This document shows, in pieces, positions 36,226 to 48,837 of a DNA stretch of 64,000 nucleotides (positions within the stretch are counted from its first letter, which is position 1; the number at the start of each line of letters is the position of its first letter). A program made the position numbers and the translations under genes. Location of the stretch: positions 19,778 to 83,777 of the forward strand of contig JAADHN010000066.1 of assembly GCA_013151865.1 (NCBI GenBank), given 5' to 3'. The stretch comes from Kiritimatiellota bacterium (GTDB lineage: Bacteria > Verrucomicrobiota > Lentisphaeria > Oligosphaerales > JAADHN01). The notes under the pieces are model-generated. The model saw only the letters and a list, made by a program, of their open reading frames with translations, was not told the origin of the DNA and did not search any database.

Positions 36226-36728
36226 GTGATGCGTTCAGGTGCGGCCATGACCTCGGATGGCGACGAGCCGAGCGAAAGGACGACCGCGCACCGTCGCGTC
36301 TCCACACCGGCACGGTCGGCGGCCGCCGACGCTGGGGCGTGCGACGCCCGCACACCGAAAAGCAGGCCGCTGGGCAGGACAACCCTCGCACGGCACGCAC
36401 TATAAACCGGACATGGGTCGAAACAATCTGTCGGGCTGATCCGCGCCCGGTCGAAATCCCGGCAACACGAAACCATCGAAGTTCGACACGACACGTGCGC
36501 CGGAGAACCGAGGGTGCGCGGCACGACTCCCCCCGGAGTACGGTCATCGGTTCAGGCTTTGGCCGATCTCCGGCGACTTCCGCCCGTGGCCCGGCGACCC
36601 CCGCTGCGACGGCGCTCCGCCCCGCCCCGGAAATCGACCCCCTTGGGCAGGTCGGACCGCACCCGAAAAACCGACTTGGGTCGATGACGCAGTTCCGGAA
36701 TGAAGTGCACAATCGGGAGAATTCGATC

Positions 36729-39700
36729 ATGAAAACGATGCGGACCCTGCTCGAACGCGTTCGGGGCCGGATTCATTGCGCAGTGCACAATGCGGGGCGT
36801 CGTTCCCGATTCGGACTGTACGCGTTCGCCGCGTGCGGCTTCTCGGTCGCGGCGACGCTGGCCGCGGACGTCAACCCCGTGAGCAACGGCGGGTTCGAGG
36901 ACGTGGGGCCGGACGGACGACCGCGGGACTGGGAGTACGTGGGCCGCGAGGCCCGGCTGGTTCAAGATGCGCACAGCGGAAAACGGGCCATCCTGCTTCG
37001 GCGCACGCCGGAGATCGCAGCACAGAAAGGACTGGAAACCGGCCTCAATCGCGCTTGGCGGCCGCACTCCGGGGAACGGGGCCGAATGCTGACCGAACGC
37101 AAGGGCGGCATCCGTTTCTTTTACAAGGTAGTACGGGCGGACGCGGACGCGCAACTTCGCTTCTTTGTGATCCCCATGAACGCGGGGCCCATGGAAAACA
37201 CGGGGTCACCCCGGGCCGTGTTCGAAGTGCCGAAAACCTACGCCGGAGACGGCAAGTGGCACTTGGGCATTGTAGGATATGATTTCACGAAAGGCACGGC
37301 CTGTCGGTGGGTGCAGGTTTCGCCGCGCATCATGGGGCAGGGGACGGCGGAATGGCTCCTGGACGACATCCAATGGGTCCCGAACGCCGGCCCGGTCCCC
37401 TCGATTCGCGACCTGCGCGTCTACGAAACACCCGGGGCGGAAGGCCGATCTTGCACCCTGCGCCTGGTAGTCCGCAATGCCGGGGATCGACCGCTGAAGA
37501 CCCGGGCGGTGCTCTCGCTTTCCAACGATTTGCGCGTCCGGGAAAGCTCGACGCGCACGGTGGGACCGTTGGCGGCGCAGGGCACGACCGCCATCGAGTG
37601 GACCGTGCTCGGGGCACGCTCGCCGCGCAGCAGGGCCGCGGTACGATTGACGGCGGGCGAGATCGAGGCCACCCGCTCTGTCCGTTTTGCGCCGAAAATC
37701 GTCGAATCTTGGATCGAAACCGGGCGGTTTGTGCTGTGGCCCGGGGCACGGACACAGGCCACGCTGGTCCTGCGCAACACCGGGACCTGCACTGCCGACG
37801 GAATCACCGCCCGCATCGCGGTCGGGGCCGGGTTGCGCGTTCTCGGCCCGGCGGCGGTCTCAGGGCGAAGCGCCGTCCCGGGAAAGCTCACCCGCATCGG
37901 GTTTCAAATCGAGGCGACCGCCCAAACCCCGGTCACGGAGGTCCGCTGCACATGGCAGAGCGTCGCGGGCGAATGCGGCGAATGCCGAGCGGAACTGGTG
38001 GTGGGCGCGCCCGCACCCGCTGCGCCGCAAGACGCACCCAAGGACGCCCTGCGACTCACCGGCAGAACAGCGGAAATCATTTTCCCGCGAAACGGATTCG
38101 GTTACGGCATCGGCTGGGTGTATGCCCGCCCATCCGGGGAACCGATCGGCGTGATCCCCCGGCTGGGCCGCATTGTATCGGGCCCTGCGGACACCGCGGC
38201 AGTCCCCCTGTTTGCGGACTCCGCAAAGCGCGGTCCTCCCGGTCCGTGCCTGGGCGGCAAAACGGACGGAAGCAACAGAGGCGGGAGCAGTCTGACCTTC
38301 CTGGTGAAAAACGGCGCCTTGGCGAAGTGCGGACTCCCGGAAGGCGTGTCGATCCGATTCGCCGTCCCCGGCTCCGGGGCGAGCGGAGCGGCGGCACGGC
38401 TCATTACGGTGACCGTCCGCGCCCGAGTCACCCGCCCTGGGGCGGTTCGTGCGCTGGATGGGCCGTTTCTCTGCCCGGGCGAAGGCGCGTCGTCGTCGAA
38501 GCGCACCGAAGCACTCTTTCCCGGCCTCGAGTGGTTGCAGGGAGACGAGTACTCGTCTTGGGACACCGACATCGCGTTCGACCACCCGGACCGGTTGCGC
38601 AGCGCGCCGCATCCGCACAAGATCACGATCCCTCTTATGGTCGTGCGCCGAAACCGCGTCGCCACCGGGTTGTTCTGGCATTCCCGCGCGACCTGGAACG
38701 ACGGTGTGCAACCCCGCGATTTTGCGCCGGATGAAAGCGCCGTGGACCGACCATGCGCCGTGTTCGCCGCACCGGACCGGTTTGCCGGGCACGCGTCGTC
38801 GACCCTCGGGCTTTTCCTCCCGACGATCCCGCACTGGATCCAACCGAACGAGCGGGCAGCGGCACGCGCATGGCCGACTCAGGGCGCCGCGCCGTTGCGC
38901 ATCCGCTTGGTGTACGGCTTCTACGTCAATCCGGCAAGCGATTCCGTACTCGATGCGGTACTGGATTGGGCACGCGTTTTCGGCTTCCCGGCACCCCGGC
39001 GCTCACCTCGCGCCCGCGGGCCGGCGCCGGCGCCGGGTTCAGTGGACGTATACCGCGGGCCCGGTCTGCCGGACTGGGCACGGGCCGCCGATTTCAGCGA
39101 ACACTGGTCCCCGCCTGCGCCCGGTCAATGGGTCGATGAAGTCGAGTGGAGCATGAATGCTTATCTCAAAAGCTTGTGGGACCCGGAGCAGCACGGTTGG
39201 TGGAATTACTGGGGAGGACCGGGATTGACGCATAAGACCGGCGCGTACCCGGCTTTTCTCTTGGACTGCGTCATCGGCGAACGTTTGACCGACGACCCGG
39301 AACTCGGCAAACGCCTGAAGGCACTGCTGGACGATGTGCGCGGCCGCGCACCCGAGTCTGTGCCCGGCGGCGACGACATGGGGTTTCGATTCGGCGACCC
39401 GACCGCGGCACTTGCGGCATCCGCAGTGCAAGCCGGGGACATAATGCGTGCCCAACCGGCGGAGGGCGGTTGGCGATTCCGCCCTCGGATCGGCAAAGGC
39501 GGCGTATTCCGGGGAAGGGACTACCGGTTGCTCGGGCGGGACGGGGAGGAAGGAAACGGACTCACAGCGCGCCGGGCCTATAACATGCTGTTCGTGAGCC
39601 GGATGACCGGGGATGAAACGTTGCTTTCCGCGGGCCTCAAGGCTTTGAGAAGCATGGAGAAGTTCCGAATCCCACGTGCGGCCCAAGTGTGGGAAGTGCC

Positions 39701-40952
39701 GGTGCATACCCCGGATATCCTGGCTGCCGCCGACGCCTGCGAAGCTTACCTGGAAGCCTATCGAATCACCGGCGACAAACAATGGCTGGACCGGGCCGTG
39801 TATTGGGAAACCGCCGGCCTGCCCTTCCTCTATCTTTGGGACGTGGACGCTTTCCCGTTCCTCCGCTATGCCTCGATTCCCGTATTCGGCGCTACCTGGA
39901 AACGCGGCTCCTGGTTTGGGAGGCCCGTGCAATGGAACGGATTGCGCTGGGCTTTCGCCGCGCAGAAACTCGCGGAAGTCGATTCCTCCCTGCCCTGGCG
40001 GATGCTCGCCGCCGGCGTGACCATTTCCGCCATGTATCAACAGGGGTCGGACCCCGAAAGCAAGAGTTTCGCCCTTTGGCCGGACAGCATCAGCGCGGAA
40101 GACGCACGGAAATCGGCATGGGTCTTTCCCCCCGTTCACATCCTCGAAAACGTGTACAAACTCATGGGGTACGAACCGCGCCCGACTACGGTGGCGGTCC
40201 CGGCCGGGGCGGGGAAAATCCGCATCGATGCCTGCGGGCGTATCGGAGCGCCGCAATACGCCGGTGGGGTGCTGCGGTTCGCACTTTCGGCCCCGCCGCC
40301 GTTGCCGACGCAGGTTCTGGTGATCGGAATATCGAGCCCCACGGAAGTGCTCGTGGACGGGAAAGCCCTGCCCCGGGCCGACACGGCGGAAAGACGTGTA
40401 AGAACTGCCGCGTGGTGGACGTACGACAGGGATGCGCGCCTGCTCCGGGTGCGCCCCAACGTGACCGGGAAACACACGATTGCGCTGCGCTCGGTGCGGT
40501 GGCGGGCAGGCCGAGTCCTGCCTCAAGTCCAGACGCGATTGGATTTCGATTTCGATTCCGGACGCCAGGGCTGGCGTCCCGCGCACGACATCGCTGCGGC
40601 AGACGCCGCGGACGGCGTGCTGGACATCACCGTGAACGGACCCGATCCGTACCTGGTCCGCCCCATGTGCCGGATCGACGGGAACATGATCGCGAGAATC
40701 CATGTGCGTATGGCCGTGGACGGTGGAAACCGGGCGCAATTCTACTGGACCACGGCGAAAGCCCCGGCCATGTCCGAAGCCCGGGCCGCCTGGGTCGCCG
40801 TGAACGCGGACGGCAGGATGCACGACTATTCGTTCGATGTGGGCGCCCACCCTTTGTGGCGGGGGCAAATCATCACGGCCGTACGACTGGATCCGACGAA
40901 CGGGGTGAAACAGGCCCGCGCCCGCATCGACTTCGTTCGCGGCGATCCCTGA
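36729..40952 (+). CDS. Giant exported protein (~1400 aa) with CBM-like ends and an alpha/alpha-barrel-like hydrolase region
   Basis: Signal peptide after MKTMRTLLERVRGRIH...AACGFSVAATLAADV; NPVSNGGFEDVGPDGRPRDWEYV; LWDPEQHGWWNYWGGPGLTHKTGAYPAFLLDCVIGERLTDDPELGKRL; C-terminal beta-rich TRLDFDFDSGRQGWRPAHD. Confidence 0.6.
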   Translation: MKTMRTLLERVRGRIHCAVHNAGRRSRFGLYAFAACGFSVAATLAADVNPVSNGGFEDVGPDGRPRDWEYVGREARLVQDAHSGKRAILLRRTPEIAAQKGLETGLNRAWRPHSGERGRMLTERKGGIRFFYKVVRADADAQLRFFVIPMNAGPMENTGSPRAVFEVPKTYAGDGKWHLGIVGYDFTKGTACRWVQVSPRIMGQGTAEWLLDDIQWVPNAGPVPSIRDLRVYETPGAEGRSCTLRLVVRNAGDRPLKTRAVLSLSNDLRVRESSTRTVGPLAAQGTTAIEWTVLGARSPRSRAAVRLTAGEIEATRSVRFAPKIVESWIETGRFVLWPGARTQATLVLRNTGTCTADGITARIAVGAGLRVLGPAAVSGRSAVPGKLTRIGFQIEATAQTPVTEVRCTWQSVAGECGECRAELVVGAPAPAAPQDAPKDALRLTGRTAEIIFPRNGFGYGIGWVYARPSGEPIGVIPRLGRIVSGPADTAAVPLFADSAKRGPPGPCLGGKTDGSNRGGSSLTFLVKNGALAKCGLPEGVSIRFAVPGSGASGAAARLITVTVRARVTRPGAVRALDGPFLCPGEGASSSKRTEALFPGLEWLQGDEYSSWDTDIAFDHPDRLRSAPHPHKITIPLMVVRRNRVATGLFWHSRATWNDGVQPRDFAPDESAVDRPCAVFAAPDRFAGHASSTLGLFLPTIPHWIQPNERAAARAWPTQGAAPLRIRLVYGFYVNPASDSVLDAVLDWARVFGFPAPRRSPRARGPAPAPGSVDVYRGPGLPDWARAADFSEHWSPPAPGQWVDEVEWSMNAYLKSLWDPEQHGWWNYWGGPGLTHKTGAYPAFLLDCVIGERLTDDPELGKRLKALLDDVRGRAPESVPGGDDMGFRFGDPTAALAASAVQAGDIMRAQPAEGGWRFRPRIGKGGVFRGRDYRLLGRDGEEGNGLTARRAYNMLFVSRMTGDETLLSAGLKALRSMEKFRIPRAAQVWEVPVHTPDILAAADACEAYLEAYRITGDKQWLDRAVYWETAGLPFLYLWDVDAFPFLRYASIPVFGATWKRGSWFGRPVQWNGLRWAFAAQKLAEVDSSLPWRMLAAGVTISAMYQQGSDPESKSFALWPDSISAEDARKSAWVFPPVHILENVYKLMGYEPRPTTVAVPAGAGKIRIDACGRIGAPQYAGGVLRFALSAPPPLPTQVLVIGISSPTEVLVDGKALPRADTAERRVRTAAWWTYDRDARLLRVRPNVTGKHTIALRSVRWRAGRVLPQVQTRLDFDFDSGRQGWRPAHDIAAADAADGVLDITVNGPDPYLVRPMCRIDGNMIARIHVRMAVDGGNRAQFYWTTAKAPAMSEARAAWVAVNADGRMHDYSFDVGAHPLWRGQIITAVRLDPTNGVKQARARIDFVRGDP

Positions 40953-40960
40953 CCGTCCCT

Positions 40961-41166
40961 CAGAACTCGGTAACGCTGTAAAGCAGAATGCCCTCTTTTT
41001 TTTGTCACAGTCACCGCCAGTGTGGGCGACTACTTTACAGAAGATGACGCTAAGCTCAGATTCGCGCGAAACTGTAACGCAGTCGCCCACACCCATTCCC
41101 GGGAGTCCGTCCAAAAAAGGGAATCCAACTTTACAGACCTCCAAGCTCAATCTACTGAGGTCTGGT
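40961..41166. repeat. Left direct repeat of the SPFH cassette (206 bp)
   Basis: Aligns to 48067-48277 with 6 substitutions and two small indels (2 and 3 bp); contains a 21-bp-arm imperfect hairpin. Confidence 0.93.
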
Positions 41167-41283
41167 CCATGGATGGGACGCGCCCCGGGCCGAATCTGGA
41201 GGATTCTGTCAGGAATATTGGGTTTGTTTGGAACATGTGGAAATGCTCGGTGTCGGAATGGTTGTTACAAGGAGATTTCGTTT

Positions 41284-41739
41284 ATGATCCTGGGAACGCG
41301 GCCAGTCCGTACCATGCCGCTGTTGGTGTTGGGGTTGCTTGCCTGTGTCCTGGTCAACGCAGGGGGACACCCACGCGTCGTGGTTTGCTACGGAATGGAT
41401 GGCCATGTTTCATTGGAATCGACTTCCGGGGCACGCTGCAGCCAGGTTTCCGAGGTGATCGTTCGCCCGACTGCCGCGCCGCAGAGAAATGTGTCTCTCA
41501 CCGCGGCCGCCGGTCATTGCGCGCCTTGCGTTGATATCCCCATTCCGTTCAGTGGATTTGAACAACAGCCTTTTCTCACGCAGGGCCCTTCCGTACCAAG
41601 CCTTGTTCCGACCGGCCCGGTCTCGGCTGATGCTTCTCCCGTGTTCACATCACTCCCTGCCGTCCGTCTTGTTCCCCCATCTTCCCTCGACTTCAGTCTG
41701 GCGCTCACGTCCCTTCGCACCGTCATCCTTTTGATCTGA
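41284..41739 (+). CDS. Small exported hypothetical protein with conserved Cys residues
   Basis: AAGGAG ribosome-binding site upstream; MILGTRPVRTMPLLVLGLLACVLVNAGG signal peptide; CYGMDGHVSLESTSGARCSQ...HCAPCVDIPIPF. Confidence 0.65.
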   Translation: MILGTRPVRTMPLLVLGLLACVLVNAGGHPRVVVCYGMDGHVSLESTSGARCSQVSEVIVRPTAAPQRNVSLTAAAGHCAPCVDIPIPFSGFEQQPFLTQGPSVPSLVPTGPVSADASPVFTSLPAVRLVPPSSLDFSLALTSLRTVILLI

Positions 41740-41909
41740 CTTCCCCCCTCTCTTCCCGGTCGTCCGTATCCCCCTGAGCTGCCGACCTTGCGATGGCAGC
41801 ACACTCTTGGCACTCTTGGCATCCCCGGCTTTGCCCACGCCCGCTGGCGTGTGTAGGTCGCATCCAACCTCCCAGAACGAGAGAATCTTAACAGACGCAG
41901 GCCAGCACC

Positions 41910-43868
41910 ATGTCTCAAAAGTTCCTGATATTCGTGACCGTTCTGGCAGTCGCAGCCCTGACGCTGCTGCTTGTCCTGCTGGCTGTCAGAGAAGAGCAAA
42001 GTACGAAAAGGATCATTGTCGAACGGGACAAACGCATCGGTGAGAATGTCGTCGCCACCTTTACCGGCGGCGAGGTCACGACCAGCGAACTGCGCAAATT
42101 CATCAATGAACGAACCCGACGATCGGGCGAACACGCTGCTTGCGACAAACACAGCTACGATCATTCCAAATGTTCGCCCGACGAAAAATGCGAGAACCAT
42201 CCCCTCAATTCGGTCGAATCCTATCGGGCCCTGCTCAGGCAATTGGTCATGGACAAGATGGTTGAACGCTGGATCCGTGAAAAAGGGATGCTGTCTCGAA
42301 AACAGGTTAAACACCGATTAAAGCATCTGGTTGAAGAAATCAACTTGGGCGCCCTCGCGGGGGAAATGCACGCCGACAAGGTGAAACCCGACAAAATCGA
42401 GATGCGCCAGTACTATGAGGAACACAAAGATGAGTACAAGAATCGTCCTTTCAGCGAAGTGGAAGAGGAAATCGAGGGAATCCTGGTCGCTCGGAAACAG
42501 AGTGAGTTCATTCCAAAGTATATCGAGGAACTGAAAGCCAATGCGGTCATTGAGAGGAACTATGACCTGATTAAAGTCCCGGAACCGACCGAGGCGGAAA
42601 TCCGAGCTTACTACGACCAGCACAGCAAGGAATATGTCCGCGCAGAGTTCCTGCGCATTCAAATTCTGCGAATCGGAGCCGAAGACGAAAAAGCGGGTCG
42701 GGCAAAAGCCGAAAAGGCCCTGGCCAAGTTGCGCGCCGGGGCAGACTTCGAAGAGGTGGCCCGAGACTTTGCCGACGACAAGACCGCGCCCATCGAGCTG
42801 GTGGAGCGCGGCCGGAAAAGCAAACGGTTCGAGGAACGAGTGTTTCGCTATTACGCCGGCGAACTGACGCCGATTTTCAAAGACGGCGGATTCTTCTATA
42901 TCGTGAAGATCCTTGAACGGGAAGGAAAGAAAAAGAAGTCGCTTCCCGAGGTATTGGCGGAGGTTACCGCAGCCGTTCGTCGACAGAAAGAAGAAGAGAA
43001 ATTCAAGTATAACAAGTATGACGCTCTTTTCAGCGTGCACGGCAAACGTTTTACGGTCGAAGAATTCCAGCAAGAGTTCTCGGAACTCTCCCCTGAAGAA
43101 CAGAGGCAATTTGCCAGCTTCAAGGCCAAAAAGAACCTGCTCGATCAACTCATTGTCCGGCAATTGCTGATGGAAAAAGCCGAGGACAAAGGCGTGGAAG
43201 CTGAGAAGCGGAAAGAGATCGAGGAACTCAAGAAACGTGCCCTCCAGCAGATGCTGCATAAGGAAGAAGTGGACGAAAAAATCGAGGTCAGCGAAAAAGA
43301 GGCCAGAGAGCTTTATGAAAAACGGAAGAACGTCCTGATGGAACCGGCTAAAGCCAAGGTCAGCGTGATCCGGATCGGTACCGGGTTCAGCGCAGACGAA
43401 CGCAAGCGGGCGCGGGAGAAAATCGAGGCGGCCCAAAAGAAACTCAACGCCGGGGCTGATTTTGCCGAAGTGGCCAAGGAGTACTCCGAGGATTGGACCG
43501 CCACGCGCGGCGGAGAAATGGATCGGTGGATCTATGAAGGCGCCGGTCATCTCGGGGAAATCTACGAGCACGGATTTCACCGGTACGTTTTCGCTCTGCA
43601 ACCCGGTGAGACGAGCGACTTCTTCGAGTTCCGCAACAACTATTGGATCGTCAAAATGCGAGAACACCGCCCGAGCCGCCGGCAGACGTTCGAGGAAGCG
43701 CGGCCCACGATCGAAGCATATATCAAGGCCCTCAAGCACGAAGAGCGCATGTTCGAACTGCAGAACGAACTGTTGGAGAAGTCGCGACTGGTCATCCGGG
43801 ACTTTGTCTTGAGCCGGATGCTTCAGGCCGAATCCACCGGCCATGAACACGAACGGGCACTGTACTGA
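41910..43868 (+). CDS. Membrane-anchored tandem peptidyl-prolyl isomerase (PpiC/SurA-like)
   Basis: N-terminal TM; two parvulin-like blocks (EFLRIQILRIGAEDEKAGRAKAEKALAKLRAGADFEEVARDF and AKVSVIRIGTGFSADERKRAREKIEAAQKKLNAGADFAEVAKEYSED...GGEMDRWIYEG); SurA-N-like helical segments. Confidence 0.85.
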   Translation: MSQKFLIFVTVLAVAALTLLLVLLAVREEQSTKRIIVERDKRIGENVVATFTGGEVTTSELRKFINERTRRSGEHAACDKHSYDHSKCSPDEKCENHPLNSVESYRALLRQLVMDKMVERWIREKGMLSRKQVKHRLKHLVEEINLGALAGEMHADKVKPDKIEMRQYYEEHKDEYKNRPFSEVEEEIEGILVARKQSEFIPKYIEELKANAVIERNYDLIKVPEPTEAEIRAYYDQHSKEYVRAEFLRIQILRIGAEDEKAGRAKAEKALAKLRAGADFEEVARDFADDKTAPIELVERGRKSKRFEERVFRYYAGELTPIFKDGGFFYIVKILEREGKKKKSLPEVLAEVTAAVRRQKEEEKFKYNKYDALFSVHGKRFTVEEFQQEFSELSPEEQRQFASFKAKKNLLDQLIVRQLLMEKAEDKGVEAEKRKEIEELKKRALQQMLHKEEVDEKIEVSEKEARELYEKRKNVLMEPAKAKVSVIRIGTGFSADERKRAREKIEAAQKKLNAGADFAEVAKEYSEDWTATRGGEMDRWIYEGAGHLGEIYEHGFHRYVFALQPGETSDFFEFRNNYWIVKMREHRPSRRQTFEEARPTIEAYIKALKHEERMFELQNELLEKSRLVIRDFVLSRMLQAESTGHEHERALY

Positions 43869-43904
43869 CCGAGCACATACTGCTGTTGAAAGGAGAATGC
43901 CGAC

Positions 43905-45437
43905 GTGGAAAGAAAAGAGCAAACGGTCCTGATCAGCATCGGCGCCAACGGATTACTCATTTCCCTGCGTTTTCTGCTCGCCTTCGTGTCCGGAAGTCTG
44001 GCCCTGAAAGCCAATGCCTGGCACTCCCTGGCCGACGTGTTCGTGCTGGGCGTCGTTTACATTGGCTTGTTTGTGGCACGACAGCAGGACCAGCGTTACG
44101 CCGGGATCATCGCATGGATGGAGAACATCGTCGCCATCTTCGTCTCGATCTTCATCTTTTGGATGGGCTTCGAGCTGTTCGGAGAGGCCGTGGCGGGAGA
44201 GGCCGTGGAACTGGCCTACGTCGTCCCATCAGCAATCGGTGCGTTTCTGGGCGTATGCATTACTTACTTCATGGGGCGGTACATGCTCTTCGTGGGGCAC
44301 GCGACCGGCTCGCCCAGCCTGATTGCCGCGGGGTCTCATGCTCGAATGGACATGTTCTGCTCTACGGCGGTGCTGCTGGGGCTGGTGGGAAGCATTTTCG
44401 GCCTGGTCGGCCTCGATAAGGTTGCCGCCACCATTGTGGTGGTCTTCATCTTCATGGCGGCCATCGAAATCTTCATGGCCAACGTCCGTGCCTTGCTCAG
44501 CGGTCGCGCCGAACTCGCCCATGAGCACGCGCACGGCCTGAACAAACCCGGCAAGCTGGTCACGGCGGGCATCGCCATACTGATCGCGGCCGGGTACCTC
44601 GGCTCGGGAGTCTACTACGTCCAGCCGGACGAACAGGCGGTGGTGCGCCGGCTCGGCAAGATCCTCGAACGCCCCTTCGGTCCCGGCCTGCATTATCGCC
44701 TGCCGTACCCGATCGACCGGGCGAACATGGTCCGTACCGGCACGGTGCGCGAAGTCGGGACCCGGAAACGCCTGCTGCTGAGCGGCGACGAGAACCTCGT
44801 GGAGGTTGACGTATCCGTGCACTATCGCGTGTCCGATCCGGTGAAATACCTCCTCAAAGCGGCCGCACCCGACACCCTTGTGCGCGAAGCGGCTCAGGCC
44901 AGCGTGCGCAACGCCGTGGGGCATCGACGAATCGACGATCTGTTGACCACCGGCCGCGAAGACGTTCTGGCAGAGGTCCGGAGGACACTCCAAGAAGAAC
45001 TCGACAGGAGCGACACGGGTATCGAAGTGGTCGGTGTCCTCCTCTTGGAACTGCGCCCCCCAGAGGACGTCGTCGATGCCTTCTATGACGTAGCCAGTGC
45101 ACGGGAAGACAAAGCCACCTACATCAACGAAGCCCATTCGGCACGTAATGCCTTGGTGCCCAAAGCACGGGGCGAAGCCGCCGAGAAAATCCTCGCCGCA
45201 GAAGCTTACAGAGAACAAAAAGTGCAGTACGCCGCGGGCGAAGCAGGTCGTTTTCTCAGCAAGCTCGAAGAATACGCCAAAGCCCGCGACATCACTGAAG
45301 TCCGTTTGTATCTCGAAGCCATGGAAAAAGTCTTGCCGGGCGTCAGAAAATTCCTGGTGGACGGTGACGTCGAGACGGGAGAGACCGACCTCTGGTTTGT
45401 TGGTAAGGACGCCGGAAACCTGTTTGGCACGAAATAA
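43905..45437 (+). CDS. CDF-type cation transporter domain fused to HflK-like SPFH domain
   Basis: CDF TM domain with NAWHSLADVFVLG and GSHARMDMFCSTAVLLG (two HxxxD motifs), linker AHEHAHGLNKPGK, then SPFH GYLGSGVYYVQPDEQAVVRRLGKILERPFGPGLHYRLPYPIDRANMVRTGTVREVGTRKR. Confidence 0.88.
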   Translation: MERKEQTVLISIGANGLLISLRFLLAFVSGSLALKANAWHSLADVFVLGVVYIGLFVARQQDQRYAGIIAWMENIVAIFVSIFIFWMGFELFGEAVAGEAVELAYVVPSAIGAFLGVCITYFMGRYMLFVGHATGSPSLIAAGSHARMDMFCSTAVLLGLVGSIFGLVGLDKVAATIVVVFIFMAAIEIFMANVRALLSGRAELAHEHAHGLNKPGKLVTAGIAILIAAGYLGSGVYYVQPDEQAVVRRLGKILERPFGPGLHYRLPYPIDRANMVRTGTVREVGTRKRLLLSGDENLVEVDVSVHYRVSDPVKYLLKAAAPDTLVREAAQASVRNAVGHRRIDDLLTTGREDVLAEVRRTLQEELDRSDTGIEVVGVLLLELRPPEDVVDAFYDVASAREDKATYINEAHSARNALVPKARGEAAEKILAAEAYREQKVQYAAGEAGRFLSKLEEYAKARDITEVRLYLEAMEKVLPGVRKFLVDGDVETGETDLWFVGKDAGNLFGTK

Positions 45438-45470
45438 CCCAGACACATTCGCAACGAAAGGAAAAAGCCG

Positions 45471-46445
45471 ATGGACGGAACAAACGGAAAAGCAACCTGG
45501 TTCAAACTGGCGGCGGGCCTGGGGGTGTTCTTCTTCGCTCTCCTGATCAGCAACCTTGTACTGTTTGTGGTCGATACAACCGAATATGCCGTGATCACGC
45601 AGTTCGGTCGCCCGGTGCGGACAATCCTGGAGCCGGGACTCCACTGGAAACTGCCCGAACCCATCCAGCTCTTGCGGCGCTACGACAACCGGCTTCAGGT
45701 TTACGAAGCGGGACAAGTCGAGTTTCTCACTCAAGACAAGAAAAGTATCGTCGTGGACTATTACGCCTCCTGGAAGATCACCGACCCGTTGGCGTTCCTC
45801 AAGACCGTGCGCGACAAGATCGGCGCAGAAGCTCGCCTGTCGGACGTGGTCTCGTCCGTACTGGGTGTGGGCGTGGGGCAATTCGAACTGAGCGATCTGA
45901 TCAACACGGACCCCGCCCGCATGAAGCTGCACGAAATGCTGGCCGCCGTGACCCAGCGCTGCAACGAGCAAACCAGCCGGTACGGCATCCAGATCGTCAA
46001 CGTGGAAATGCGCACCCTCAATTTCCCGGAGAAAAATAAACTGAGCGTGTTTCGGCGTATGAAAGCCGAACGGGAACAGATGGCCAGGAAGTACCGGTCC
46101 GAGGGAAGCGAAGAGGCGGCCAAGATCCGCGCGGAAGCCCGCAAAGAGGAGAAAACGATCCTGTCCGAAGCCTACCGAAAAGCGGAAACAATCAAAGGCG
46201 AAGGAGATGCCGAGGCAATCCGTATTTATGCCCAGGCCTTTCAGAAAGATCCGGAGTTCTACCGTTTCATCAGAACTCTCGCGGCGTACGACAAGATCAT
46301 AGACGACAAAACGACGGCCATTCTACCGGCCGACTCGGACCTGCTGAAGTACTTCGCCCGGGGGAGAAGCAGCCCCGCGAAAAACCGGGGCGGAAGCAAG
46401 CGCGCCATGGTCCCGAACAGACGCCCGGAAGGAGCCGAAAAATGA
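45471..46445 (+). CDS. hflC: HflC-like SPFH protein
   Basis: VDTTEYAVITQFGRPVRTILEPGLHWKLPEPIQLLRRYDNRLQVY...RMKAEREQMARKYRSEGSEEAAKIRAEARKEEKTILSEAYRKAETIKGEGDAEAIRIYAQAFQKDPEFYRFIRTLAAYDKII. Confidence 0.9.
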   Translation: MDGTNGKATWFKLAAGLGVFFFALLISNLVLFVVDTTEYAVITQFGRPVRTILEPGLHWKLPEPIQLLRRYDNRLQVYEAGQVEFLTQDKKSIVVDYYASWKITDPLAFLKTVRDKIGAEARLSDVVSSVLGVGVGQFELSDLINTDPARMKLHEMLAAVTQRCNEQTSRYGIQIVNVEMRTLNFPEKNKLSVFRRMKAEREQMARKYRSEGSEEAAKIRAEARKEEKTILSEAYRKAETIKGEGDAEAIRIYAQAFQKDPEFYRFIRTLAAYDKIIDDKTTAILPADSDLLKYFARGRSSPAKNRGGSKRAMVPNRRPEGAEK

Positions 46446-47428
46446 GCGAGATCGAACGCCACGACAACCCATGGGACGATATTCGGCGAGCTTTCGGCCA
46501 TCTGAAACCGACCGTGCTTGTGCCGATCGCCGCGCTGGTCCTGGGCGCCGTCTACCTGGGCACGGGCGTCTACATCGTCAATCCCGGCGAGCAAGGGGTG
46601 GTCAAACGGTTCGGGCGAGTCATCGCGACTGTGGATGAAGGCGCCCACTATCGACTCCCGTGGCCGGTGGACACGGTCGAAGTCGTCAATGTGAGCAAGG
46701 TGCGGCGCGCAGACATCGGCATGGTCCTTCCCGAACACGAACATCCGGCGTTTCTGCCGGAAAAACTGCAACTGCTGACCGGGGACGAGAACCTCATCAA
46801 CGTCGAAGCAATCATCCACTACAAAATCAAAGATCCGGCCCGTTTCCTCTATCGCACTAACTTCGGCGAGGAAAGATTGCTGCACAACGCCGTCGGCTCG
46901 GCCCTGGTTGAACTCATCGGTCAAATGGCGGTGGACGACATCCTTACCACGGAGAAGATCAGTGCCCAGGCAAGAATCCTACGGAAAGCACAGAAGGTCC
47001 TCGATGAATACGAAAGCGGTCTGCAGATCAGCGCCTTCAATATTCGAGCCATCGTGCCGCCGGAGGATGTGGCGGACGCCTTTCGGGACGTCCAGACCGC
47101 CAAGGAGGATCGCGAGCAGGTGATCAACCAGGCCAGAGGCTTTGCCAACAGCATCCTTCCCGAAGCCCGGGGACGGGCCCGGGAGTGGACCAGCGAGGCC
47201 GAAGGCTACCGCACCGAGGTGGTCAACCGCGCCGAGGGGGACGCACAGAACTTCGAGGCAGTGCTGGCCGAGTACCAGAACGACGCCCGGATGTACAGCG
47301 AGGACATTACCCGCTATCGACTCTACCTCGAAACCATGGAAAAAATCCTCCCACGCGTCAAGAAGTACGTTCTTCGGGCGCGTGCCGGCGGCGAAAAAGT
47401 GAACTTGCGCTTCGTCAACAGGGAATAG
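46442..47428 (+). CDS. hflK: HflK-like SPFH protein
   Basis: NPGEQGVVKRFGRVIATVDEGAHYRLPWPVDTVEVVNVSKVRRADIG...RGRAREWTSEAEGYRTEVVNRAEGDAQNFEAVLAEYQ; ATGA overlap with the hflC-like gene. Confidence 0.9.
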   Translation: MSEIERHDNPWDDIRRAFGHLKPTVLVPIAALVLGAVYLGTGVYIVNPGEQGVVKRFGRVIATVDEGAHYRLPWPVDTVEVVNVSKVRRADIGMVLPEHEHPAFLPEKLQLLTGDENLINVEAIIHYKIKDPARFLYRTNFGEERLLHNAVGSALVELIGQMAVDDILTTEKISAQARILRKAQKVLDEYESGLQISAFNIRAIVPPEDVADAFRDVQTAKEDREQVINQARGFANSILPEARGRAREWTSEAEGYRTEVVNRAEGDAQNFEAVLAEYQNDARMYSEDITRYRLYLETMEKILPRVKKYVLRARAGGEKVNLRFVNRE

Positions 47429-47455
47429 GCGTTTCAAAGGACCGGAGAGATCGAG

Positions 47456-47629
47456 ATGCTGGAAATAGTGCAACTGGTCGCAATGGTCGTGCTTCTTGTG
47501 GCGATGACGGGCATGCTCGTATTGGTTGCCCGTCTTGCGCGGGTCGTGGAACGCTGGGAACGACGGCTTTCCCCAGCGTCGAGACAAACCGGTGATCGAG
47601 AAACGAAAGGAGGTGATCCGAGTGGATAA
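47456..47629 (+). CDS. Micro-membrane protein (57 aa)
   Basis: Hand translation MLEIVQLVAMVVLLVAMTGMLVLVARLARVVERWERRLSPASRQTGDRETKGGDPSG; single TM; follows hflK-like gene by 27 bp. Confidence 0.6.
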   Translation: MLEIVQLVAMVVLLVAMTGMLVLVARLARVVERWERRLSPASRQTGDRETKGGDPSG

Positions 47630-47777
47630 AGTGGGTGCAATCCTGGACGGCGTTGCCACGCTTATCGTGGGCGTCGGCGTACTGGTGGTCCTTCTCAAAA
47701 CGGGCGGCTTGGTCGCTGCTTTGGGAGGACGGCTCAACCCCGAAAACAAAGAAGAAAACGCAACCAGCCAGAGTTGA
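47622..47777 (+). CDS. Micro-membrane protein A (51 aa), paralogue of the next gene
   Basis: AAAGGAGGTGAT RBS 6 nt upstream of GTG; VDKVGAILDGVATLIVGVGVLVVLLKTGGLVAALGGRLNPENKEENATSQS. Confidence 0.65.
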   Translation: MDKVGAILDGVATLIVGVGVLVVLLKTGGLVAALGGRLNPENKEENATSQS

Positions 47778-47811
47778 ACATGGAGTCCTGACTTGAAAGG
47801 AGACAGGTAAA

Positions 47812-47943
47812 ATGAGCAATGTGGGAGAAATCCTCAGTAATGTGGCAACGCTGCTGGTCTCGATCGGGGCCGTGGTCGTGCTGTTCAAAACCGCGGGCCT
47901 CATCACGGCGCTTTCCGAACGCATCAAGGAGTGGAAGGAATAG
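47812..47943 (+). CDS. Micro-membrane protein B (43 aa), paralogue of the previous gene
   Basis: GAAAGGAGA RBS upstream; MSNVGEILSNVATLLVSIGAVVVLFKTAGLITALSERIKEWKE. Below the ORF-track length cutoff, translated by hand. Confidence 0.65.
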   Translation: MSNVGEILSNVATLLVSIGAVVVLFKTAGLITALSERIKEWKE

Positions 47944-48066
47944 CCCGTCGGCTGTTTCATTCGACCGTCAAGGGCAGTCGCTCCGCAGCAACCTGCGGGG
48001 CGCTGCCCTTTCCGCTTCTGGGCAAAGTCGACCTCTGTGATCCACAACCCCCGGCAAATCGTGCTC

Positions 48067-48277
48067 CAGAACTCGGTAACGCGGTAAAGCAGAATGCCCT
48101 CTCCTTTTTTTGTCGCAGTCACCGCCAGCGTGGGCGACTACTTTACAGAAGATGACGCTTCCAAGCTCAAATTCGCGCGAAACTGTAAGGCAGTCGCCCA
48201 CACCCATTCCCGGGAATCCGTCCAAAAAAGGGAATCCAACTTTACAGACCTCCAAGCTCAATCTACTGAGGTCTGGT
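48067..48277. repeat. Right direct repeat of the SPFH cassette (211 bp)
   Basis: See 40961-41166; same orientation. Confidence 0.93.
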
Positions 48278-48837
48278 GCTCATGTCCGATGCGAGGCATG
48301 GCAACTCGGATGATCCCATCTGGGTTGCTTCTCGCAACAATTCACTCGCCGAGCCGAACGAATCGACCTCCCGAAACGACCGTACGCGGACAGTGACGAC
48401 GCCCACACGCAACTCCTCGCCCTCGGCGTCCGACAGGCGCCAGCCACTCCGGCGGGGGGACCGCCTGATCGGCGAGCCGGCGGAGCAGAAAAAACGTCAG
48501 CGCGGAAACCAAGACCACAGGCCTGCACCGTGGCAGGCGCCGGGTGTGAACGCCACGCTTGTTTTGTACCAAAACCGTTACCTGCGCGACCCCACCTCAC
48601 GGTATGGAAGAAAACGCAGTAAGGCATTGGTTGGTGAATAGATAAGACAACAAGTCTTCTACCTTTTGCCGGGGCCGGGCCGTTGCCGAAAGTGGTACAC
48701 TTTTAACTTGGCGGTGAGACCGGGGGGCGCCACGTCCTCTCCACGCTCCGGCCCCACGCAAAAATGCCGGACAGGGCACCGCGCCACCGCCACTCCGAAA
48801 ACGGAAAACGACGCACCTTTTTTGGCAATCGCCGCTT

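Follow-up and report, generated by a model that had tools for sequence, protein, structure and literature searches.

An operon joining a CDF metal exporter to HflK, and a proposed SPFH-scaffolded metal-export platform

We describe an operon in a 64-kb stretch of contig JAADHN010000066.1 from a Kiritimatiellota bacterium; "the window" below means this whole stretch. Its central gene encodes a CDF-type metal exporter fused to HflK and is followed by genes for HflC and a second HflK (HflK2), giving three SPFH genes in K-C-K order, not the two-gene hflK-hflC operon. At the level of sequence, the fusion keeps intact CDF metal ligands, the operon is conserved across genomes, and HflK-HflC-HflK triads carry a metal exporter as a rule. 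We think it rather likely that the products of this operon form a metal-export platform scaffolded by SPFH proteins.

The CDF-HflK fusion and its operon in other genomes

Both halves of the fusion score above cut-off in Pfam and NCBIfam. The CDF half spans residues ~5–205 and has the hallmarks of a CDF exporter: a Cation_efflux domain with six transmembrane (TM) helices and two metal-ligand pairs, HxxxD at 40/44 and 145/149, invariant in 10/10 aligned proteins. The HflK half consists of a TM helix (217–233), an SPFH domain and a coiled coil. The identity of the HflK and HflC proteins as SPFH3 members rests on an SPFH (Band_7) domain together with HflK/HflC profile scores over the curated cut-offs. 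A YiiP-like cytoplasmic C-terminal domain is absent from the fusion, as the CDF match stops near residue 205 and the HflK TM helix starts at 217; CDFs without this domain exist. An AlphaFold monomer model of the fusion matched both HflK of the E. coli HflK/C-FtsH complex (7vhq, 9cz2, 7wi3) and zinc-loaded YiiP (8f6k).

A scan of 84,980 genomes identified the fusion, at 46–75% identity, in seven metagenome-assembled genomes (MAGs) labelled Nitrospiraceae, Planctomycetota, Actinomycetota and Chloroflexi. The "Actinomycetota" MAG appears to be placed in Planctomycetota by GTDB, since the genomes drawn for its phylum overlap with those drawn for the Planctomycetota MAG. The window's own phylum adds two genomes, G276 and G227 (~59% identity). 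The operon is therefore found in four phyla, namely Planctomycetota, Chloroflexota, the phylum of the "Nitrospiraceae" MAG and the window's own, and is rare in each: 3/289 own-phylum genomes including this one, 2–3 per draw of 199–246 Planctomycetota, 2/201 Chloroflexota and 1/68 in the phylum of the "Nitrospiraceae" MAG.

Gene order elsewhere is constant, running PpiC, CDF-HflK, HflC, HflK and the small single-TM (micro-TM) proteins, mostly followed by a second PpiC (PpiC2) and/or a Zn/Cd-type P1B ATPase; at six other loci a ZntA/CadA-type P1B ATPase lies inside the operon. In the HflC tree, the window protein groups with L061, L062 and L063, from "Nitrospiraceae" and Planctomycetota MAGs, and the proteins of G276 and G227, which belong to the window's own class, group with another Planctomycetota MAG (L067). 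Since this grouping cuts across the window's own class, the operon is, by its gene order and HflC phylogeny, a conserved and horizontally spread module. The initial annotation of this DNA had proposed a metal-linked SPFH system with co-travelling genes, acquired horizontally; the shared order in four phyla and the P1B ATPase at six other loci bear out the former claim, and the HflC phylogeny supports the latter.

HflK-HflC-HflK triads and metal exporters

Two more SPFH triads are encoded in the window's own genome. The one on contig C24 (L070:5881-11031) opens with a 1055-aa protein in which a P1B ATPase is joined to HflK; HflC and HflK come next, and the same P1B-HflK fusion occurs in G007, G020 and G053, from the same phylum. 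On contig C82, a triad is followed by a P1B gene. Prompted by these triads, we surveyed ~100 HflK/HflC loci with ~6 kb flanks from the own phylum and Planctomycetota, and these split into HflK-HflC pairs and HflK-HflC-HflK triads.

In the own phylum, where an exporter was counted if a P1B, CDF or ArsP gene lay in the same orientation and no more than 3 kb away, none of the 39 pairs had one. Among the 23 triads, 20 had a P1B beside or fused, and one (L111, in G012) had a P1B just beyond the fetched stretch, giving a metal exporter in 21/21 triads with complete surroundings. All 18 Planctomycetota triads had an exporter as well (12 P1B, 5 ArsP_1 permease-HflK fusions and 1 CDF fusion), compared with 0 of ~15 clear pairs. 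Across both phyla, an exporter is thus present at 39/39 complete triads and at 0 of ~54 pairs. Fisher tests gave 1e-16 for the own phylum (21/0 vs 0/39) and 2e-10 for Planctomycetota (18/0 vs 0/18, taking atypical loci as pairs); these p-values overstate the evidence because related genomes are not independent. Chance adjacency would be ~1%, as a genome carries just 0–6 P1B genes.

This weakness of kinship does not touch the repeated use of three unrelated transporter families: HflK is fused to CDF, to P1B (C24 of the own genome, L108, L109 and L135) and to ArsP_1, the last heading triads at five Planctomycetota loci (L200, L207, L210, L211 and L212). In the HflC tree, ordinary HflK-HflC pairs form one separate clade. 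One locus that looked like a "K-K-C" triad (L196) was rejected, as a single HflK is split there across two frames. At another, L202, nonribosomal peptide synthetase genes lie directly after HflC, in the place of HflK and P1B.

In triads with a separate P1B, the first HflK carries about six TM helices ahead of its HflK part. A model of this head domain, built from an 18-domain alignment, was confident (predicted local distance difference test, pLDDT, 87; predicted template modelling score, pTM, 0.81), and its top 30-odd PDB matches in Foldseek were CDF/ZnT zinc transporters, with a probability of 1.00 for most but E-values from 0.003 upward and TM-scores of 0.35–0.49. Profile-profile comparison aligned 193 columns of the head domain to the fusion's CDF half (P 1.8e-5, probability 78%). 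The metal-ligand aspartates are missing in 18/18 head domains, whereas they are invariant in 10/10 CDF-HflK fusions. The head domain of separate-P1B triads is therefore a probable decayed CDF without metal ligands. On a broader reading, which in our view could as easily fail as hold, the triads would be a distinct, widespread SPFH branch whose purpose is to house exporters of metals and metalloids, be these CDFs, P1B ATPases or ArsP permeases; its first subunit would have arisen as a CDF-HflK fusion and decayed in many lineages to a metal-dead CDF anchor once P1B took over transport.

Operon genes, flanking repeats and base composition

The gene content and one-way orientation given by the initial annotation were confirmed, as all genes between the two repeats lie on the + strand (Table 1).

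Table 1. Genes of the operon and flanking repeats (positions in the window)
Feature	Position	Strand	Remarks
MITE-like repeat, upstream	40961-41164		204 bp; not part of the system
Exported Cys protein	41284-41739	+	151 aa; motif VVCYGMDGHV...HCAPCVDIPI
Tandem PpiC/parvulin foldase, membrane-anchored	41910-43868	+	652 aa; Cys/His-rich insert CDKHSYDHSKC...KCENHP
CDF-HflK fusion	43905-45437	+	510 aa; Pfam and NCBIfam profiles
HflC	45471-46445	+	324 aa; TIGR01932, 208 bits vs cut-off 134
HflK2, third gene of the HflK-HflC-HflK triad	46442-47428	+	328 aa; TIGR01933, 238 bits vs cut-off 159
Micro-TM protein 1	47456-47629	+	57 aa
Micro-TM protein 2	47622-47777	+	51 aa; VDKVGAIL..., GTG start
Micro-TM protein 3	47812-47943	+	43 aa; MSNVGEIL...
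MITE-like repeat, downstream	48067-48275		209 bp; not part of the system

The exported Cys protein had no Pfam match. It has relatives in the equivalent position at L063 (3422-3859) and, more divergent, at L067 (3228-3890), and the family pattern CxGxDGHV...HCxPCVDxP adjoins metal-export genes. The Cys/His insert of PpiC was found in 8/10 aligned proteins. Micro-TM protein 3 is kept across phyla, at 60–92% identity in seven other loci, with 445/200/935 substitutions at codon positions 1/2/3; in micro-TM protein 2, substitutions likewise pile up at position 3. Read from their sequences, the micro-TM proteins are genuine genes. A very long open reading frame of 1537 aa (36339-40952), without any Pfam match, lies 5' of the operon.

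The repeats on either side resemble a miniature inverted-repeat transposable element (MITE). They had been taken as the bounds of a cassette, ~97% identical; we measured 94.7% identity in direct orientation. One search of the own genome returned 35 matches; full-length copies, half copies and copies at contig edges make up ~31 of these. The repeat is ~205 bp long, and aligned copies end in common 12-bp terminal inverted repeats (CAGAMCTCRGTA). Target-site duplications of 6 bp (5 or 6 positions matching) surround 17/23 copies, with a chance expectation of <0.5% per site. The left window repeat has gtccct/gtccat at 40955-40960 / 41165-41170, and the right one gtgctc/gtgctc at 48061-48066 / 48276-48281. 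Since each repeat has its own, different duplication, the two are independent insertions of a MITE-like element and not the ends of one cassette. Among the 60 genomes searched, the repeat is essentially limited to the own genome, with weak partial matches in two others; it is missing from all other cassette loci, and no tRNA or known RNA was found at the block ends. The downstream copy occupies the place of PpiC2 and/or the P1B ATPase in relatives.

GC across the block is 0.57–0.59 against 0.62–0.66 in its surroundings, so the dip reported by the initial annotation is real; as a sign of foreign origin or recent transfer it fails, because GC at third codon positions (GC3) of the SPFH genes is host-like (CDF-HflK 0.74, HflC 0.735, HflK2 0.75; range 0.735–0.753) compared with 0.72–0.79 in neighbouring genes. 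Only two genes fall lower, that of the Cys protein at 0.625 and that of PpiC at 0.66. The dip arises largely at the first two codon positions and mostly reflects amino-acid content.

Neither the repeats nor the composition, therefore, provides an argument for a recent mobile cassette. A composite-transposon-like unit mobilised by its flanking repeats would account for an operon lying between two same-orientation copies, 95% identical. However, at least ~31 copies are dispersed in the genome, the outer flanks of the pair differ (GTCCCT vs GTGCTC) with no single duplication across it, and the same gene order occurs in relatives without the repeats. The target-site duplications already refute this explanation, to which we give practically no credence; the "repeat-bounded cassette" of the initial annotation is to be abandoned, also on the annotation's own terms, which named an unchanged order lacking repeats, with host-like composition, as its refutation.

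The proposed platform, its alternatives and known systems

We propose that CDF-HflK, HflC and HflK2 would together form a cage or ring of the HflK/C type, seated on the inner membrane at its periplasmic side. Because the N-terminal part of one subunit is a CDF exporter, such a cage may enclose, or be studded with, exporters of a divalent metal, probably Zn or Cd. The SPFH domain of E. coli HflK is periplasmic by established topology, and that of the fusion is predicted to be so as well, as the CDF part ends in the cytoplasm and the HflK TM helix comes next. The periplasmic side is also reported for HflK in the literature (PMC2636767), and the enclosure of membrane proteins by SPFH cages is known for stomatin, which houses aquaporin-1 and UT-B (PMC12407830). 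The partner P1B-2 ATPase may be corralled into the same microdomain; in this genome the matching gene lies on another contig, C16, and its product is 58–67% identical to the cassette P1Bs and ~39% to others. The anchored PpiC with its Cys/His insert, the Cys protein and the micro-TM proteins may fold, stabilise or pass on metal in the periplasm. Cage assembly, metal identity, transport direction, enclosure of the ATPase and the accessory roles are all what we infer from this arrangement.

Several points weigh against the proposed platform. Relatives carry a P1B ATPase and PpiC2 that the window operon lacks; PpiC2 was not found in the own genome, where a search gave just one weak match besides the PpiC of the operon itself, and a P1B gene on a separate contig could mean that the platform is incomplete here. 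The model of the fusion has moderate confidence (pLDDT 68, pTM 0.44), and CDF family membership fixes neither metal nor direction. In the survey, two own-phylum triads (L118 and L124) are truncated at contig ends, L202 has a pseudo-CDF-HflK and HflC but, in the surveyed stretch, neither an exporter nor a second HflK, and three further loci (L198, L213, L214) are incomplete or atypical.

In E. coli, HflK and HflC build a cage together with FtsH (PMC13220708), and the best structural matches of the fusion include 7wi3 and 9cz2. The operon could accordingly serve quality control under metal stress, with HflK/HflC recruiting the host FtsH, CDF-HflK delivering that protease to transporters that are in excess or damaged by metal, and the PpiC foldases triaging envelope proteins. 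The genome has a single FtsH gene, on contig C91, with no tie to the window operon seen, and HtrA-type proteases adjoin the operon in some relatives (L064, L069). At the surveyed loci, however, FtsH was not seen except for one match at L141, a pair locus, and the exporter link is constant in triads whereas protease neighbours vary; we regard this explanation as rather unlikely. A role in metal delivery instead of detoxification would have CDF and P1B load periplasmic or secreted metalloenzymes in a shielded space, where PpiC and the Cys protein would assist folding and metal handover. Some P1B ATPases serve metalloenzyme assembly elsewhere, and foldases with Cys/His-rich exported proteins are, in our judgement, unusual in pure efflux operons. 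The P1B is nevertheless of the Zn/Cd/Pb-export type, and RND/HlyD or OEP efflux genes adjoin the operon in two relatives (L063 and L067), which makes delivery quite improbable.

As to what SPFH cages do beyond holding FtsH, a branch whose cargo is encoded in the gene itself would provide an answer open to direct test, namely that these cages hold metal pumps. If the proposed platform is real, it would tie together membrane microdomains, metal resistance and envelope folding. The natural fusions would suit structural work, as their cargo cannot dissociate. SPFH proteins and CDF and P1B exporters are already known, but their joining and an exporter-tied triad branch did not turn up in the papers searched. 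We found no description of CDF-HflK, P1B-HflK or an SPFH-metal-efflux link in open-licence PMC papers, and "undescribed" is provisional because subscription papers and database architecture pages lay outside the search.

Among known systems, the operon resembles E. coli HflK/HflC-FtsH (SPFH3, TIGR01933/TIGR01932) in its domains, which score above curated cut-offs, in its K-then-C order and in its best structural matches; it differs in having no adjacent FtsH and three SPFH genes, of which the first carries a fused metal exporter. With the CDF zinc exporters (YiiP, ZnT; TIGR01297) it shares six TM helices and two HxxxD metal sites, but HflK here replaces the cytoplasmic C-terminal domain of YiiP. 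In M. tuberculosis, P1B ATPases cluster with small TM proteins in membrane platforms built by PacL, and PacL1-CtpC efflux foci form without flotillin (PMC9374683, PMC13043812). That "effluxosome" likewise combines metal-efflux P1B ATPases with small TM proteins, but its scaffold is PacL and not SPFH, whereas here an SPFH scaffold and an exporter are covalently joined; the micro-TM proteins resemble PacL (DUF1490) in small size and single TM helix only. The stomatin cage (PMC12407830) is similar as an SPFH cage enclosing a membrane transporter, yet it is eukaryotic, cytosolic and non-covalent, whereas the platform proposed here would be bacterial, predicted periplasmic and partly covalent.

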